In this document: positions 15,682 to 22,424 of the stretch, in pieces | Numbering within the stretch: position 1 is the first letter of the stretch | How the letters are laid out: each line of letters begins with the position of its first letter | Assembly (NCBI GenBank): GCA_030681555.1 | Contig: JAUXRW010000079.1 | Span: 1-38,874, forward strand | Reading direction: 5' to 3' | DNA: 38,874 nt | Source of the DNA: Acidimicrobiales bacterium | Lineage (GTDB): Bacteria; Actinomycetota; Acidimicrobiia; Acidimicrobiales; VFJN01 | Made by a program: the position numbers and the translations under genes | The notes under the pieces: generated by a model | Databases searched by the model: none | Seen by the model: only the letters and a program-made list of their open reading frames with translations | What the model was told of the DNA's origin: nothing

Positions 15682-16187
15682 TCGAGCTCACCGAGGAGCC
15701 GTACGACGGCGGCCTGGCCGAAGGGCTCATCGCCGGCCTGCTCGCCGACCTCGACGAGCGCTACGCGGCGGACCTCGACGGCCTCACCTCGGAGGAGGTG
15801 GCGGCGGACCAGGCCGCGTACCTGGCCGAGGTGCGCGCCGAGGAGGTGCGCCGCCCGGTGGGAATCTTCGTGGTCGCCCACCTTGACGGAAACCCCGTGG
15901 GGTGCGGCGCCGTGCGGGCGCTCGACGCGGCGCGCCGCGTGGGCGAGATCAAGCGGATGTACACGCTCCCGACCGCTCGTCGGCGAGGCGTCAGCCGGGC
16001 GATCCTGCAGCGCCTGGAAGCGGTCGCCCAAGAGCTGGGGTATCGCCACCTGCAACTGGAGACGGGCGTGCAGCAGCCGGAGGCGGTCGCCCTGTACGAG
16101 TCGGCCGGTTGGTACCGCATCGAGCCGTACGGCCACTACCGCGCATCGCCGTGGTCGGTCTGCCTGGCCAAGGAGCTCCCCGGGTGA
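15678..16187 (+). CDS. GNAT-family N-acetyltransferase
   Basis: A 169-residue single-domain GNAT protein. The acetyl-CoA loop is visible as LPTARRRGVSRAILQRLEAVA, preceded by the beta4 strand VGEIKRMYTL. ETGVQQPEAVALYESAGW gives the late alpha4/beta6 part. The substrate cannot be read. GTG 15678 overlaps the miaB stop and its own TGA overlaps the miaA start, both by 4 bases, so it is translated as part of miaB-GNAT-miaA. A tRNA or ribosome link is possible by position only; GNAT proteins often acetylate small molecules or protein N-termini. Confidence 0.85.
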   Translation: MIELTEEPYDGGLAEGLIAGLLADLDERYAADLDGLTSEEVAADQAAYLAEVRAEEVRRPVGIFVVAHLDGNPVGCGAVRALDAARRVGEIKRMYTLPTARRRGVSRAILQRLEAVAQELGYRHLQLETGVQQPEAVALYESAGWYRIEPYGHYRASPWSVCLAKELPG

Positions 16188-17101
16188 GCGGCGTCGGCGG
16201 CGCGCACGCCGTGCTGGTGGGGGCGACGGCGTCGGGCAAGTCCGCGCTGGCGCTCGAGCTGGCCCGGCGCGACGCAGCCTGGGAGCTCGTGTCGGTCGAC
16301 TCGATGCAGCTCTACCGGGGGATGGACATCGGCACGGCAAAGCCGACGCCGGCCGAGCAGGCCGAGGTGCCGCACCACCTCATCGACGTCCTCGATCCGT
16401 GGGAGGACGGCACGGTCGCGCGGTTCCAGCGCGAGGCGCTGACCACGATCGACACCATCGAGGCGCGGGGGCGGCGGGCCCTGCTCGTGGGCGGCACGGC
16501 CCTCTACGTGCAGGCGGTGGTGGACGGCCTCGACATCCCGGGTCGTTACCCCGACGTACGTGAGGAGCTCGAGTCAGAGCCCGACACCGCCGTCCTCCGT
16601 CACCGGTTGGGCACGCTCGACCCGTTGGCCGCCGGCCGCATGGAGCCGGGCAACCGGCGCCGGATCGTGCGCGCCCTCGAGGTCACCCTCGGAAGCGGCC
16701 GGCCGTTCTCCAGCTACGGCCCCGGGCTCGACGTGCACCCCCCGACGCGGTTTCGCATGGTCGGCGTCGCCCGCGCCCCCGACGACACCGCACGGCGCAT
16801 CGAGGCGCGCTACGCGGTCCAGATGGAGGCCGGCTTCCTGGCCGAGGTCCGCCGTCTCATGGCCCACCCGCGCGGCCTGTCCCGGACGGCGCGCCAGGCC
16901 CTCGGGTACAAGGAGCTCATCGACCACCTGGAGGGAGCGTCGACCCTCGAGGAGGCGCTCGACCTGGCGGTGCGCCGCACCCGCCGGTTCGCACGACGGC
17001 AGCGCTCGTGGTTCCGTCGCGACCCGCGCATCCTGTGGCTGGACGTGGCGCCGGGCAGCGTGAACCCTCTCGTTGACGCGCTGGCCGCCGCCGTAGGCTG
17101 A
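16184..17101 (+). CDS. miaA: tRNA dimethylallyltransferase
   Basis: MiaA transfers a dimethylallyl group from DMAPP to N6 of A37, making the substrate of MiaB. The 305-residue protein has the P-loop GATASGKS, VSVDSMQLYRGMDIGTAKPT with the conserved Asp, LVGGTALYVQAV, and the late segments ALGYKEL and RTRRFARRQRSWFRRD that contact tRNA. Length is normal. The GTG start overlaps the GNAT stop by 4 bases. Its TGA (17099-17101) overlaps the last base of the dapF -10 hexamer. Confidence 0.95.
   Translation: MSGVGGAHAVLVGATASGKSALALELARRDAAWELVSVDSMQLYRGMDIGTAKPTPAEQAEVPHHLIDVLDPWEDGTVARFQREALTTIDTIEARGRRALLVGGTALYVQAVVDGLDIPGRYPDVREELESEPDTAVLRHRLGTLDPLAAGRMEPGNRRRIVRALEVTLGSGRPFSSYGPGLDVHPPTRFRMVGVARAPDDTARRIEARYAVQMEAGFLAEVRRLMAHPRGLSRTARQALGYKELIDHLEGASTLEEALDLAVRRTRRFARRQRSWFRRDPRILWLDVAPGSVNPLVDALAAAVG
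17094..17099 (+). promoter_or_regulatory. -10 hexamer TAGGCT, leaderless dapF promoter
   Basis: TAGGCT lies 9 nt before ATG 17109 and overlaps the end of miaA. It could let dapF be expressed independently of the miaB-miaA transcript. Confidence 0.5.
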
Positions 17102-17108
17102 TTCCCGC

Positions 17109-17909
17109 ATGCGCCTGTCCAAGCACCACGGCCTGGGGAACGACTTCCTCGTCCTGCTCGACCTCGCTGGCGCGCACCCGATCGCACCGGCGACCGCGCG
17201 GGCGCTCTGCGACCGGCGCACCGGCATCGGCGGCGACGGGCTGATCCGCGTCACCTCGGGCGGCCCCGACGCGGACGTGGCAATGGAGCTGCTGAACGCC
17301 GACGGCTCCACCGCGGAGATGAGCGGCAACGGCATCCGCTGCCTCGCCCAGGCGGTCTTCCAGTCGCAGGTCGTGCCGGGCCCCGCGCTGCGGGTCGCTA
17401 CGGCCGCCGGCCTCCGCACGGTCACGACCCTCTCCGGCGGGTCGGCGCACACCCAGCGCTTCACCGTCGAGATGGGGCAGGCCAAGGTGGGGGCGGACGA
17501 GCCCGAGTGGGTCGACGGGCCGGTGCTCCGGGCGACGCAGGTCGACGTGGGCAACCCGCACATGGTCCTCCACTGGGCCGAGGCGAACCTGCCCGACCGC
17601 GAGCGGCTCGTCGAGCTCGGGGAGCGCATCGACGGGCTGACGCCCGGGGGCACCAACGTCGAGGTCGTCCACGCCGGACCTCGGGACGGCGAGCTGTCGA
17701 TGGTCGTCTACGAGCGGGGCGTCGGACCCACCCAGGCCTGCGGCACCGGGGCCTGTGCCGCCGCCGCGGCCGCCGAGCAGTGGGAGCTGACCGCCTCGTC
17801 CACAACCGTGCACATGCCGGGAGGTCCGGTCGACGTCGTCCTCGGGGACCCCGTGCTCCTCACCGGCGAGACCACCTCGATCGCCGTCGTCTACGCCCCC
17901 TGGCCCTGA
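17109..17909 (+). CDS. dapF: Diaminopimelate epimerase, variant active site
   Basis: DapF interconverts LL- and meso-diaminopimelate without a cofactor, normally using two catalytic cysteines. The 266-residue protein has the family frame: KHHGLGNDF, RTGIGGDGLI, NADGS, and the second Cys in CGTGACA (Cys211). At the first catalytic position, where relatives have CGNG (Cys73 in Haemophilus DapF), this protein reads MSGNGIRC with Ser72. Cys78 a few residues later matches a common non-catalytic Cys. Position after miaA and before hflX is conserved in actinobacteria. The family call is firm; full epimerase activity is uncertain. Confidence 0.88.
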   Translation: MRLSKHHGLGNDFLVLLDLAGAHPIAPATARALCDRRTGIGGDGLIRVTSGGPDADVAMELLNADGSTAEMSGNGIRCLAQAVFQSQVVPGPALRVATAAGLRTVTTLSGGSAHTQRFTVEMGQAKVGADEPEWVDGPVLRATQVDVGNPHMVLHWAEANLPDRERLVELGERIDGLTPGGTNVEVVHAGPRDGELSMVVYERGVGPTQACGTGACAAAAAAEQWELTASSTTVHMPGGPVDVVLGDPVLLTGETTSIAVVYAPWP

Positions 17910-17922
17910 GGTACGACCGCGC

Positions 17923-19206
17923 ATGTCACTGATCGAACGGGCCGTACGGGAAAAGATCGTGCTCGTCGGCGTCACCCTTCCGCCCAGCTCCACCGAGGAC
18001 ACCGAGGCCGGGCTGGACGAGCTCTCGCAGCTGGTCGACACGGCCGGGGCCGACGAGGTGGCCCGCGTGGTCCAGAAGCGTCGCGCCCCCGACCCGCCGA
18101 CGTTCGTCGGCAAGGGCAAGGCGGCCGAGCTCCACGAGGTCGCCCTCGAGACGGACTGCGACACGGTCGTCTTCGACAACGAGCTGACGCCAGCACAGCA
18201 GCGCAACCTGGAGAAGCTGCTCGGACGGACGGCCATCGACCGTACCGCCGTCATCCTCGACATCTTCGCCCAGAACGCCCACAGCCAGGAGGGCAAGGCG
18301 CAGGTCGAGCTGGCGCTGCTGCGCTACCGGCTCCCGCGGATGCGCGGGAAGGGCACTGCCCTCTCCCAGCAGGGTGGCGGCATGTCGGCCGGCGGCGCCC
18401 GCATCGGCACGCGGGGCCCGGGCGAGACGCAGCTCGAGGTCGACCGCCGGCGGATCCAGCGGCGCATCCACAAGCTCGAGGCCGAGCTGCGCGAGATCGA
18501 GAAGCACCGGGCCACCCAGCGCAAGGCGCAGCTCCGCAGCCGCGTGCAGCGCATCGCGATCGTCGGTTACACCAACGCCGGCAAGTCGACGCTGCTCAAC
18601 CAGCTCACCGAGGCGGGCGTGCTCGTGGAAGACCGCCTGTTCGCCACCCTCGACGCCACCACCCGCCGCCTCGACCTGCCCGGCGGCGAGTCCGTGCTCC
18701 TCACCGACACGGTCGGCTTCATCCGCAAGCTGCCCCATCAGCTGGTGGAGGCCTTCAAGTCGACGATGAGCGTCGTGGTCGATGCCGACCTCCTGGTGCA
18801 CGTGGTCGACGCGTCGGCGCTGGACCCGGACGGGAACATCGAAGCGGTGCGGGCCGTCCTGCGGGCCATCGGGGCCGACGACGTGCCCGAGCTGCTCGCG
18901 TTCAACAAGGCCGACCTGGCGGCGGAGTCCGCCCGCCGCCTCACGAAGGTGCACGACGGCTCGGTGCTGATCAGCGCCACCACCGGCGAAGGCGTGCCCG
19001 ACCTGCTCCGCACGATCGCCGACCGCCTGCGCGCCCTCACCAACGTGGTCGAGCTGTCGGTGCCCTACGAGCGAGGCGACGTCATCGCGGCCGTGCACCG
19101 CGAGGGCGAGGTCCTCGTGGAGCTGGCGGAGGAGGCGGCGCTGCGGCTGCGCGTGCGCCTCGACGCGGCGTCGCTCGGGCACTTCGTCGACTACGTGGTG
19201 GGATGA
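17923..19206 (+). CDS. hflX: GTPase HflX
   Basis: A ribosome-associated GTPase that splits stalled or stress-damaged 70S ribosomes in well-studied species. The 427-residue protein has the HflX N-terminal domain (FVGKGKAAEL, FDNELTPAQQRNLE), a basic coiled-coil linker after GGGMSAGGARIGTRGPGE, then the G domain. The G domain has G1 GYTNAGKST, G3 DTVGF and G4 NKAD, and a short C-terminal domain follows. It starts 13 bp after dapF. A TACGAC sequence upstream is a poor -10, so it is probably read through from dapF. Its stop overlaps the next ATG by 4 bases. Confidence 0.95.
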   Translation: MSLIERAVREKIVLVGVTLPPSSTEDTEAGLDELSQLVDTAGADEVARVVQKRRAPDPPTFVGKGKAAELHEVALETDCDTVVFDNELTPAQQRNLEKLLGRTAIDRTAVILDIFAQNAHSQEGKAQVELALLRYRLPRMRGKGTALSQQGGGMSAGGARIGTRGPGETQLEVDRRRIQRRIHKLEAELREIEKHRATQRKAQLRSRVQRIAIVGYTNAGKSTLLNQLTEAGVLVEDRLFATLDATTRRLDLPGGESVLLTDTVGFIRKLPHQLVEAFKSTMSVVVDADLLVHVVDASALDPDGNIEAVRAVLRAIGADDVPELLAFNKADLAAESARRLTKVHDGSVLISATTGEGVPDLLRTIADRLRALTNVVELSVPYERGDVIAAVHREGEVLVELAEEAALRLRVRLDAASLGHFVDYVVG

Positions 19207-20315
19207 CCCGGTCCGTGACCGCTGTCGGAGGGTTCGTCCCGCCGCCGTACCCCTACGACCGCCTCGACGATCTCAAGCCCGCCGCCGAGGCCTTGCCCGG
19301 CGGGCTCGTCGACCTCTCCATCGGCACGCCCTGCGATCCGCCGCCCGCCGTCGTCGTCGAAGCACTGGCCCGGTCCGACGCCGAGCGCGGCTATCCGGCA
19401 TCGATCGGGTCCTCCGCCTACCGCGAGGCAGCGGCCGGCTGGTTGGCGCGGCGGTTGGACGTGTCGATCGGGCCGGCCCAGGTCGCCGCCTGCGTCGGCA
19501 CCAAGGAGCTCGTCGCCGGGCTGCCGCAGTGGCTGCGCCTCCGGCAGCCCCACCTCGACACGGTGCTGTACCCGGCCATCAGCTACCCCACCTACGCGAT
19601 GGGAGCCACGTTGGCCCGCTGTCGGGCCGTCCCCTACGAGCACATCGAGGCCATCGAGTCCGCCGACACCGAGCGGGCGCTGTGCCTCTGGGTGAACACC
19701 CCCGGCAACCCCACCGGCGCCTTGGCGGATCTCGAGACCGCGGCCGCGTGGGGTCGCGCGTGCGGCGTGCCGGTGCTCTCCGACGAGTGCTACGTCGAGT
19801 TCACCTGGTCGGGGCCGCCCCGCACGATCCTCCAGCACGGCCCCGATGGCGTCCTCGCGGTCCACTCGCTGTCGAAGCGGTCGAACCTCGCTGGCGTCCG
19901 CGCCGGCTTCTACGCGGGCGATGCGGATCTCGTCCGCTACGTGTCGGAGCTGCGGAAGCACGCTGGGTTCATGGTGCCCGGGCCGGTGCAGGCGGCGGCG
20001 GTGGCGGCATGGGGTGACGACGCCCACGTCGACGAGCAGCGCACGCGCTACCGGCACCGGTTGGAGCTGATGCGGTCGGCCCTCCGGTCGATCGGCGTCG
20101 ACGCTCCGGCGCCTGACGGCGCGTTCTACCTGTGGGCCCCGGCACCCGACGGCGACGCCTGGGCGCTCACCCGGCGCCTGGCCGAGCAGGGCGGTGCGCT
20201 CGTGTCGCCCGGGGAGTTCTACGGGCCCGCCGGTGCGGGCTACGTCCGGGTGGCCGTCGTGCAGCCGGACGACCGCATCGAGTTGGTCGCGCAGCGCCTC
20301 ACCGACGCCTCCTGA
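19203..20315 (+). CDS. dapC: Succinyldiaminopimelate aminotransferase
   Basis: A fold-type I PLP aminotransferase of 370 residues, probably converting N-succinyl-2-amino-6-ketopimelate to N-succinyl-LL-DAP. Visible landmarks are the N-terminus FVPPPYPYDRL, NTPGNPTG, the PLP-contacting SDECYVEF, Lys225 in HSLSKRSNLAG as the Schiff base, and the carboxylate-binding Arg near GYVRVAVV. General aminotransferases look alike, but the neighbouring dapD and dapE support DapC. The ATG overlaps the hflX stop (ATGA). Transcription probably ends at a UUCG hairpin that includes its own stop codon. Confidence 0.88.
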   Translation: MTRSVTAVGGFVPPPYPYDRLDDLKPAAEALPGGLVDLSIGTPCDPPPAVVVEALARSDAERGYPASIGSSAYREAAAGWLARRLDVSIGPAQVAACVGTKELVAGLPQWLRLRQPHLDTVLYPAISYPTYAMGATLARCRAVPYEHIEAIESADTERALCLWVNTPGNPTGALADLETAAAWGRACGVPVLSDECYVEFTWSGPPRTILQHGPDGVLAVHSLSKRSNLAGVRAGFYAGDADLVRYVSELRKHAGFMVPGPVQAAAVAAWGDDAHVDEQRTRYRHRLELMRSALRSIGVDAPAPDGAFYLWAPAPDGDAWALTRRLAEQGGALVSPGEFYGPAGAGYVRVAVVQPDDRIELVAQRLTDAS

Positions 20316-20331
20316 GCGCCTTCGGGCGTCA
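20313..20331. terminator. Shared bidirectional UUCG hairpin of dapC and dapD
   Basis: TGA-G-CGCC-TTCG-GGCG-TCA folds into a 7-bp stem with one bulged G (20316) and a UUCG tetraloop (20321-20324). The outer TGA is the dapC stop; the outer TCA is the complement of the dapD stop. The structure can form in both transcripts. On the dapC side TTCTTGTG follows, a weak U-rich stretch. Confidence 0.6.
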
Positions 20332-21312
20332 GTTCTTGTGGAGCGCTTCGTTGAGCTGCACCGTGCCGACGTCGCGCGCCAGCACCTCGATGGCGCCCGA
20401 CCGGCTGTTGCGCCGGAACAGGAGCCCGCTGCGGCCGCTGAGCTCCCGGGCCTTCACCACCGACCCGTCCGGCTGCGTGACGAGCGACCCCGCGGTGACG
20501 TAGAGGCCGGCCTCGACGACGCAGTCGTCGCCGAGGGAGATCCCGATGCCGGCGTTGGCTCCGAGCAGGCAGCGCTCGCCGAGGCGGACGACCTCCTTGC
20601 CCCCACCGGAGAGCGTGCCGATGATCGACGCCCCGCCCCCGAGGTCGGTGCCCTCGCCCACCACGACGCCCTGGCTGATGCGGCCCTCCACCATGGCGAC
20701 GCCCAGGGTGCCGGCGTTGAAGTTCACGAACCCCTCGTGCATAACGGTCGTGCCCTCGGCGAGATGGGCGCCGAGGCGCACGCGGTCGGCGTCGGCCACG
20801 CGGACGCCCGTCGGGACGACGTAGTCGAGCATGCGGGGGAACTTGTCGAGCGAGTGCACCTGCAGGGGCGAGCCGGTGGCCCGGGCCCGGAGGCGCGCCG
20901 CGTCGAGAGCCTCGATCGCTACGGGTCCGAGCTGGGTCCACGCCACGTTGCCCAGCACGCCGAAGAGACCGTCCAGGTTGACGGTGTTGGGTCGCACGAG
21001 GCGGTGGGACAGCAGGTGGAGCCGGAGGTAGGCGTCGCAGGTGTCGGCCGGAGCAGCGGACAGGTCGGCGATGGTCGTCCGCACAGCGACAACGGTCACG
21101 CCCCGCACGGCGTCCTCGCCCAGCGCCCCGGCCACCTCGGCCCCCAGCGCCTCGGCCGCCTCCGACGGGTCGAGGTCGACGCTGCCGGCCGTCGCTGTCG
21201 CGCCGGCCAGCTCGGGGCGCGGGAACCACGCATCGAGCACCCGCCCGTCAGCGGCGCGGGTGGCCAGGCCGGCGGCGGTGGCCCCGCCGGTGGTGCGGGA
21301 GGTGTCGGTCAC
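20329..21312 (-). CDS. dapD: Tetrahydrodipicolinate N-succinyltransferase
   Basis: DapD succinylates tetrahydrodipicolinate using succinyl-CoA, opening the succinylase branch. The 327-residue protein is of the long actinobacterial type: an N-terminal domain (1-~165), then a left-handed beta-helix of hexapeptide repeats ([57 protein letters not shown]), and a C-terminal segment. GTG 21312 is chosen because a -10 TACGGT lies 8 nt upstream; the longer frame would use TTG 21321. It is divergent from dapE across about 50 bp and converges on dapC. Confidence 0.93.
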
Positions 21313-21320
21313 GGTCGGCA

Positions 21321-21326
21321 ACCGTA
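21321..21326 (-). promoter_or_regulatory. -10 hexamer TACGGT, leaderless dapD promoter
   Basis: Read on the minus strand, TACGGT lies 8 nt before GTG 21312. Together with the dapE hexamer (21350-21355) it makes a compact divergent control region in which the two -10 elements are 23 bp apart. Confidence 0.55.
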
Positions 21327-21349: not shown

Positions 21350-21355
21350 TAACGT
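21350..21355 (+). promoter_or_regulatory. -10 hexamer TAACGT, leaderless dapE promoter
   Basis: TAACGT lies 7 nt before ATG 21363. It favours that start over the in-frame GTG at 21354, which overlaps the hexamer. Confidence 0.55.
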
Positions 21356-21362
21356 GGGCGGC

Positions 21363-22424
21363 ATGACGGAGCCGGACCTGCTCGCCCTCACCGCCGAGCT
21401 CGTCGACATCCCCTCGGTCAGCCTCGACGAGGGCGCCATCACCGACCACCTCGAGGCCGCGCTGCGGGAGCTGCCCCACGTCGGCGTCGAGCGCATCGGC
21501 GCGAACCTCGTCGCCCGCACGGCCCTGGGGCTCGACCACCGCGTCGTCCTGGCCGGCCACACGGACACGGTCCCGGCCGATGGCAACGAGCGGGCCCGGG
21601 TGGACGGCGACGTGCTGTGGGGCCTCGGCGCGGCGGACATGAAGGGCGGGCTGGCGGTGATGCTGGCCCTGGCCCGCACCTTGCCCGATCCTGCGGTCGA
21701 CGTGACGTGGGTGTTCTACGCCGGCGAAGAGGTGGCCTCGGAGCACAACGGCCTGGCCCTCCTCGTGCGCGACCGGCCCGACCTCGTGGCCGGCGACGTC
21801 GCGATCCTCGGCGAGCCCACCGGCGCCGAGATCGAAGCGGGGTGCCAGGGCACGCTCCGCGTGGACGTGCGCCTGCGGGGCGTGCGTGCCCACTCGGCCC
21901 GACCCTGGATGGGTCGCAACGCGGTGCACCGGCTGGGAGCGGTGCTGCGCACGATCGAGGCCGTCCCGGAGCGGAGGCCGGTGATCGACGGGTGCGAGTT
22001 CCGCGAGGCGCTCCAGGCCGTCGCCGTCTCTGGCGGGGTGGCCGGCAACGTCGTCCCCGACCTCGCCACGCTGACGCTCAACCGGCGGTTCGCACCGGAT
22101 CGCACCGTCGGGGAGGCGGAGGCGGAGCTCCGGGCGCTCCTCGCTCCCCACCTGGAGGACGGTGACGAGGTGGAGGTCGTCGACGCGGCGCCCGCCGCCG
22201 CACCCGGCCTCGGGCACCCCGTCCTCCGGCGCCTGATCGACGAGCACAAGCTCGAGGTGCGGGCCAAGCTCGGCTGGACGGACGTGGCCCGCTTCACGCA
22301 GCTCGGCATCCCGGCCTGCAACCTCGGTCCGGGCGACGCGACGCTCGCCCATGCCGCCGACGAGCGGGTCGACCGGGCGTCGCTTGACCGCACGTACGCG
22401 GTGCTACGAGCTTTGCTCTCCTGA
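21363..22424 (+). CDS. dapE: Succinyl-diaminopimelate desuccinylase
   Basis: An M20-family binuclear zinc hydrolase of 353 residues that releases LL-DAP from N-succinyl-LL-DAP. Metal and catalytic residues are visible: His66 and Asp68 (GHTDTVP), bridging Asp92 (GAADMKGG), Glu122-Glu123 (YAGEE), Glu151 (GEPTG), and a late His in LAHAADERV. The dimerisation or lid domain (about 175-280) includes RAHSARPW. The product is the substrate of DapF. It converges on the protease gene with only 14 bp between stop codons. Confidence 0.93.

Follow-up and report, generated by a model that had tools for sequence, protein, structure and literature searches.

Diaminopimelate epimerase (DapF) provides a building block of lysine and of the bacterial cell wall, and its activity normally requires two cysteines. 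The enzyme serves as the standard illustration of how a thiol/thiolate pair carries out cofactor-free 1,1-proton transfer, and it is through these two cysteines that it is treated as a drug target. The window, by which we mean the whole stretch of 38,874 nucleotides analysed here from an Acidimicrobiales bacterium, encodes a DapF homologue with a serine where the first of the two cysteines is expected. The locus therefore raises the question of whether a DapF with a Ser/Cys pair can be the epimerase on which its host relies. We predict that it is, and that the protein is quite probably the working LL-/meso-DAP epimerase of the host, using Ser72 and Cys211 as its catalytic pair.

The dapF open reading frame (17109-17909, forward strand) encodes a protein of 266 amino acids. 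Its first active-site motif reads MSGNGIRC, within the segment ...AEMSGNGIRCLAQ..., and the codon of Ser72 is AGC (17322-17324, +). The second catalytic cysteine, Cys211, is intact in the segment TQACGTGACAA (codon at 17739-17741, +). The protein scores 192.4 bits against the curated equivalog model TIGR00652, whose cut-off is 114.65, and 139 bits against PF01678, the sole Pfam-A family that it matches. No match was found to a proline racemase family in Pfam-A, nor, in NCBIfam, to the models NF033599 and NF052224 of the histidine racemases CntK/HisR. When the protein is aligned with the DapF proteins of C. glutamicum, Arabidopsis and Anabaena, Ser72 lies opposite their first catalytic cysteine and the surroundings of both motifs are free of gaps. 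Thus, the catalytic cysteine is not located elsewhere in the protein, a possibility the earlier note had considered. Of the two cysteines that define the class, the protein lacks the one in CGNG and retains the one in CGTG. The open reading frame, the profile matches and the alignment therefore all confirm what had been read from the letters, an unambiguous serine codon at the first position combined with an intact Cys211. We also considered Cys78 as a replacement nucleophile and rejected it: it is kept in 127 of 128 Ser72 proteins but equally in 39 of 39 Cys72 proteins, which means that it is no stand-in particular to the Ser clade.

Upstream of dapF lie miaB, a GNAT gene and, directly adjacent, a miaA homologue (16184-17101, +); the names of miaB and miaA, and the start codon of the latter, were assigned by inspection. 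Downstream, hflX (17923-19206, +; TIGR03156, 436 bits) is followed by three genes of DAP synthesis that all score over the cut-offs of their models. These are dapC for the succinyl-DAP aminotransferase (19203-20315, +; TIGR03539, 361 bits), dapD for the tetrahydrodipicolinate N-succinyltransferase (20329-21321, reverse strand; TIGR03535, 480 bits) and dapE for the succinyl-DAP desuccinylase, which makes LL-DAP (21354-22424, +; TIGR01900, 454 bits). Among related loci, hflX is found downstream of the Ser-dapF gene in 72 of 72 cases and a miaA-like gene upstream of it in 66 of 71. The genome paper of Ilumatobacter coccineum reported no dapE and invoked dapL (PMC3910706); the dapE that stands beside dapC in the window is clear, and its absence in I. 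coccineum is worth rechecking.

The predicted model of the protein (pLDDT 95.4, pTM 0.92) shows the two-domain, pseudo-symmetric fold of DapF. Ser72 is found directly before helix 73-85 and Cys211 directly before helix 212-224, and such a helix-cap arrangement has been described for both DapF cysteines (PMC12039745). Structurally, the model comes closest to DapF in the closed, ligand-bound state, the first match being the inhibitor-bound Anabaena enzyme (9mro; Z 35.7, 254 residues, 1.9 A), followed by 3ejx (Z 34.8) and 5m47 (Z 33.6). C. glutamicum DapF needs the DAP-binding residues N15, N74, N85, N159, N194, E212 and R213 (PMC5296763), whose equivalents in the window protein are N11, N63, N74, N149, N183, E202 and R203. 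All seven are nearly invariant in the Ser and Cys groups alike. That all the tested binding residues are kept argues for DAP as the substrate.

How could a serine serve in this active site? L,L-aziDAP alkylates the first cysteine of DapF and D,L-aziDAP the second (PMC12039745). By analogy, the first catalytic residue would face the proton at the L-centre of LL-DAP, so that the LL-to-meso direction would depend on Ser72 as the base, which is the chemically harder role for a hydroxyl. We propose that Ser72 and Cys211 cap two facing helices, one on each side of the alpha-carbon. In the LL-to-meso direction, Ser72 would take the L-centre proton inside a closed, water-free pocket, and Cys211 would return a proton from the opposite face. 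Exchanging Cys for Ser in a related histidine racemase greatly reduces turnover, and either C83A or C221A nearly abolishes the activity of C. glutamicum DapF (PMC5296763). Since such mutants are slow or nearly dead, enzymes that carry the serine by nature must have adapted at other positions. The Ser and Cys groups diverge most strongly at columns 6, 61, 79, 81, 82, 122, 225 and 236. These columns are candidates for such adaptations, but not proof of them, as they may merely mark descent. One of them, His6, is present in 108 of 128 Ser-clade rows and rare elsewhere; it is a possible compensating base, though the residue is not constant and Tyr, Leu and Trp occur too.

A reason for the exchange is suggested by the behaviour of the two-cysteine enzyme, since C. 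glutamicum DapF is inactivated under oxidation by a disulfide between its catalytic cysteines (PMC5296763). A Ser/Cys pair cannot form this bond, which makes redox resistance plausible as the advantage gained, and escape from the inactivating disulfide is a likely reason why Cys was exchanged for Ser.

Since serine is a poor base, one of the two proton transfers might not be made by the protein itself. Cys211 would then carry out one transfer, while the other would fall to an ordered water that Ser72 and the helix dipole hold in place and polarise. Two ordered waters are indeed seen in Anabaena and Arabidopsis DapF when the active site is closed; however, the chemistry of DapF is thought to rely on the expulsion of water (PMC12039745). 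Moreover, in 77 diverse rows position 72 is occupied by Ser, and once by Thr, but never by Ala or Gly, a pattern suggesting that the hydroxyl itself takes a direct part. We therefore consider a water relay rather unlikely.

Another proposal keeps both residues but makes them unequal: a pKa difference between the two sides could lead to turnover in essentially one direction. The Cys/Thr aspartate/glutamate racemase EcL-DER provides a precedent (PMC8142540), and the cell requires conversion from LL to meso only. However, with the first cysteine on the LL side, a serine that acts only as an acid would favour conversion from meso to LL, which is the wrong direction. The overall equilibrium, furthermore, is set by thermodynamics, so that any one-way behaviour can only be kinetic. 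This proposal, too, appears doubtful to us.

A working DAP epimerase is also what the metabolism of the host would demand. The window protein is the only PF01678 protein found in a search of its own genome, and the best match to meso-DAP dehydrogenase (Ddh) there reaches 21.8 bits, far below the cut-off. Neither a second dapF nor ddh, the two genes for which the earlier note had proposed a search, was thus found in this genome. Ddh was likewise not detected over the cut-off in any of 119 genomes of the class, while the C. glutamicum control was positive, and in a further set it was found in 1 of 47 genomes. Ddh is absent from nearly all genomes examined, and in most of them DapF is encoded by a single copy. 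The one genome with a hit, G260 of the window's order, encodes a true Ddh (422 bits) alongside its Ser-DapF. Five one-contig genomes of the clade (G005, G017, G030, G113 and Aquihabitans sp. G128, the last a complete chromosome) have a single DapF, and it carries the serine. Salinilacustristhrix flava EGI L10123, Aquihabitans sp. G128 and IMCC26207 are cultured strains that combine a Ser-DapF with the absence of Ddh. LysA, which acts on meso-DAP, is present in the window's genome (432 bits), and lysine synthesis therefore needs meso-DAP. The genome also encodes a MurE with a DNPR motif, which we do not trust to tell meso- from LL-DAP enzymes. Meso-DAP has been found in the murein of Acidimicrobium ferrooxidans (PMC3035218) and in the walls of most Iamiaceae (PMC12263773), both being data from cultured species of the group that are not matched one-to-one with the sampled Ser-DapF genomes. 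The earlier worry over which isomer is used in the wall is therefore answered only in part, by these reports for the group and by the presence of LysA in the host.

These results bear on whether the protein might have lost its DAP epimerase activity, and now acts on another substrate or catalyses an elimination, with meso-DAP supplied by another enzyme. There is precedent for such a change: in the proline racemase superfamily the members with a Cys/Thr pair are dehydratases, and some homologues of DapF (HisR, CntK and DcsC) act on other substrates. However, the window protein retains every DAP-binding residue and does not match the HisR and CntK models. Its gene lies between miaA and hflX, beside dapC and dapE, in a genome with neither Ddh nor a second DapF. 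A loss of activity is thus quite improbable.

The serine is not confined to the window. The 80 nearest relatives found in a scan of species genomes are, by their titles, Acidimicrobiia and related actinobacterial MAGs; all 80, like the window's own genus, have Ser at position 72 and Cys at position 211. In the first set of relatives, column 72 is Ser in 89 of 89 rows. Of 96 genomes sampled from the window's order, 94 encode the Ser form, one the Cys form and one has no detected dapF; genomes missed by the motif pattern were checked with the family model for this count. Of 296 sampled genomes of the class, 227 are picked up by a motif pattern permitting Cys, Ser or Thr and 86 by its Cys form, which leaves roughly 140 with Ser; the remaining families of the class are Cys/Cys. 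The alignment of related DapF proteins thus favours the clade variant that had been envisaged, with a serine fixed across a large clade. The sole Cys/Cys genome of the window's order (G244) has no further DapF, and the one it has is very divergent (branch 3.2) and scores just below the TIGR00652 cut-off. A protein so divergent, with nothing else in the genome, looks like a gene replacement, and this dapF was probably acquired. Finally, position 72 is Thr (EMTGNG) in one genome (G067), which is nested in the Ser clade.

When column 72 was left out of the tree, the 77 rows of the class with Ser or Thr grouped as a single clade (SH-aLRT 93), placed among Cys/Cys rows. In a second tree, from which both catalytic columns had been removed, the support for the Ser clade is 95. 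The summed branch length within this clade is 44.6 substitutions per column, and the median column has undergone 28 changes. Column 72, in contrast, shows a single change, the one to Thr, and column 211 none. Ser72 is encoded by AGY in 111 rows and by TCN in 16. A return to Cys at column 72 was not seen save for the replaced gene of G244, although TGY is only one base away from AGY. To judge from the sequences, this is what selection for a hydroxyl residue looks like, rather than decay. In a single MAG, Ser72 could be put down to a mistake in sequencing or assembly, or to gene decay. However, chance or error is excluded by the presence of Ser in all 89 rows of the first set. The residue is also found in 94 of 96 genomes of the order, isolates and complete genomes included, and column 72 is strongly constrained, so that this explanation has next to no probability.

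Further DapF variants were found in the course of this analysis. In three other families of the same phylum (f81, f89 and f92), 14 genomes were examined, and in each of them the sole PF01678 protein carries serines in place of both catalytic cysteines, with the motifs ELSGNG and SSGTG, ASGTG or ASGSS. The one example scanned (L224) passes TIGR00652 with 189 bits, and a search of 16 genomes from these families detected no Ddh over the cut-off. The Ser/Cys pair also turns up separately, in four small genomes of family f77 and in a single genome of family f59 (G425). One genome (G640, 6 percent contamination) has two DapF proteins (L204 and L219), one Ser/Ser (EKSGNG...ASGSSSC) and one Cys/Cys. 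The mirror case, in which the first cysteine is kept and the second is replaced by Ser (TTGSGTG), is seen in a genome (G218) with a second PF01678 protein. In the 1-Mb genomes of family f29, the first motif reads CVNG instead of CGNG, with Val after the catalytic cysteine in 4 of 4 cases.

Throughout a large branch of the class, DapF is usually encoded by one gene only, and that gene strictly keeps the serine. This casts doubt on the textbook two-cysteine rule, which probably does not hold for bacteria with Ser-DapF. If the sole-copy Ser/Cys versions, and the Ser/Ser ones, do the job of DapF, the thiol pair is not essential. The abstraction of an alpha-proton (pKa about 29) by a weak serine hydroxyl could then be tested in evolved enzymes instead of crippled mutants. 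Ser-DapF moreover makes it possible to test whether redox resistance caused the exchange. A caution also applies to family models such as TIGR00652, which let proteins without catalytic cysteines through and raise no flag. Tentatively, these strands may be joined into a wider picture, in which entire bacterial lineages rely on DAP epimerases that are essential and yet dispense with the cysteine pair. Of the Acidimicrobiia sampled, about half or more would have a Ser/Cys enzyme whose Ser is the LL-side base, and another lineage of the phylum would have Ser/Ser enzymes; the exchange would have persisted because lysine and wall synthesis thereby escape being shut off by oxidation. We regard this combined picture as possible, but less than even in its chances.

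In the open-access literature we found no description of a Ser-DapF, or of DapF in Acidimicrobiia or Thermoleophilia, which is no proof of novelty. The known DapF proteins of H. influenzae, C. glutamicum, Anabaena and Arabidopsis share with the window protein the fold (Z 28-36), the DAP-binding residues, the second cysteine and the place in the succinylase DAP pathway. They differ in that the first cysteine is present and an inactivating Cys-Cys disulfide is possible, whereas the clade of the window has a fixed serine. The C73S variant of H. influenzae DapF (PDB 2Q9H), which both Foldseek and VIA match to the window model, has the identical residue at the identical position. However, that serine was made by mutagenesis, while the one in the window protein is natural and, it appears, selected.

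Two systems outside the family also have mixed pairs. Avi_7022 is a Ser-Cys 4-hydroxyproline 2-epimerase (Ser93/Cys255) for which two-base epimerisation has been reported (PMC4113996). It resembles the window protein in its overall fold and in the placing of Ser and Cys on opposite faces, but differs in family, substrate and pathway, and the identity of the window protein to the related structures 4q2h and 4lb0 is about 18-19 percent. We take the family of Avi_7022 to be PF05544. The fold family of EcL-DER, in turn, is presumably unrelated to DapF. What EcL-DER has in common with the window protein is a hydroxyl residue in place of one cysteine of a two-cysteine cofactor-free racemase, and it has been reported to convert L-Asp to D-Asp irreversibly (PMC8142540). 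The suggestion that the window protein uses a Ser/Cys pair, as some enzymes of the proline racemase fold do, gains support from the known Ser/Cys hydroxyproline 2-epimerase (PMC4113996) and from a genome that offers no second DapF or Ddh. By analogy, Avi_7022 and EcL-DER show that mixed Ser/Cys or Cys/Thr pairs can work.
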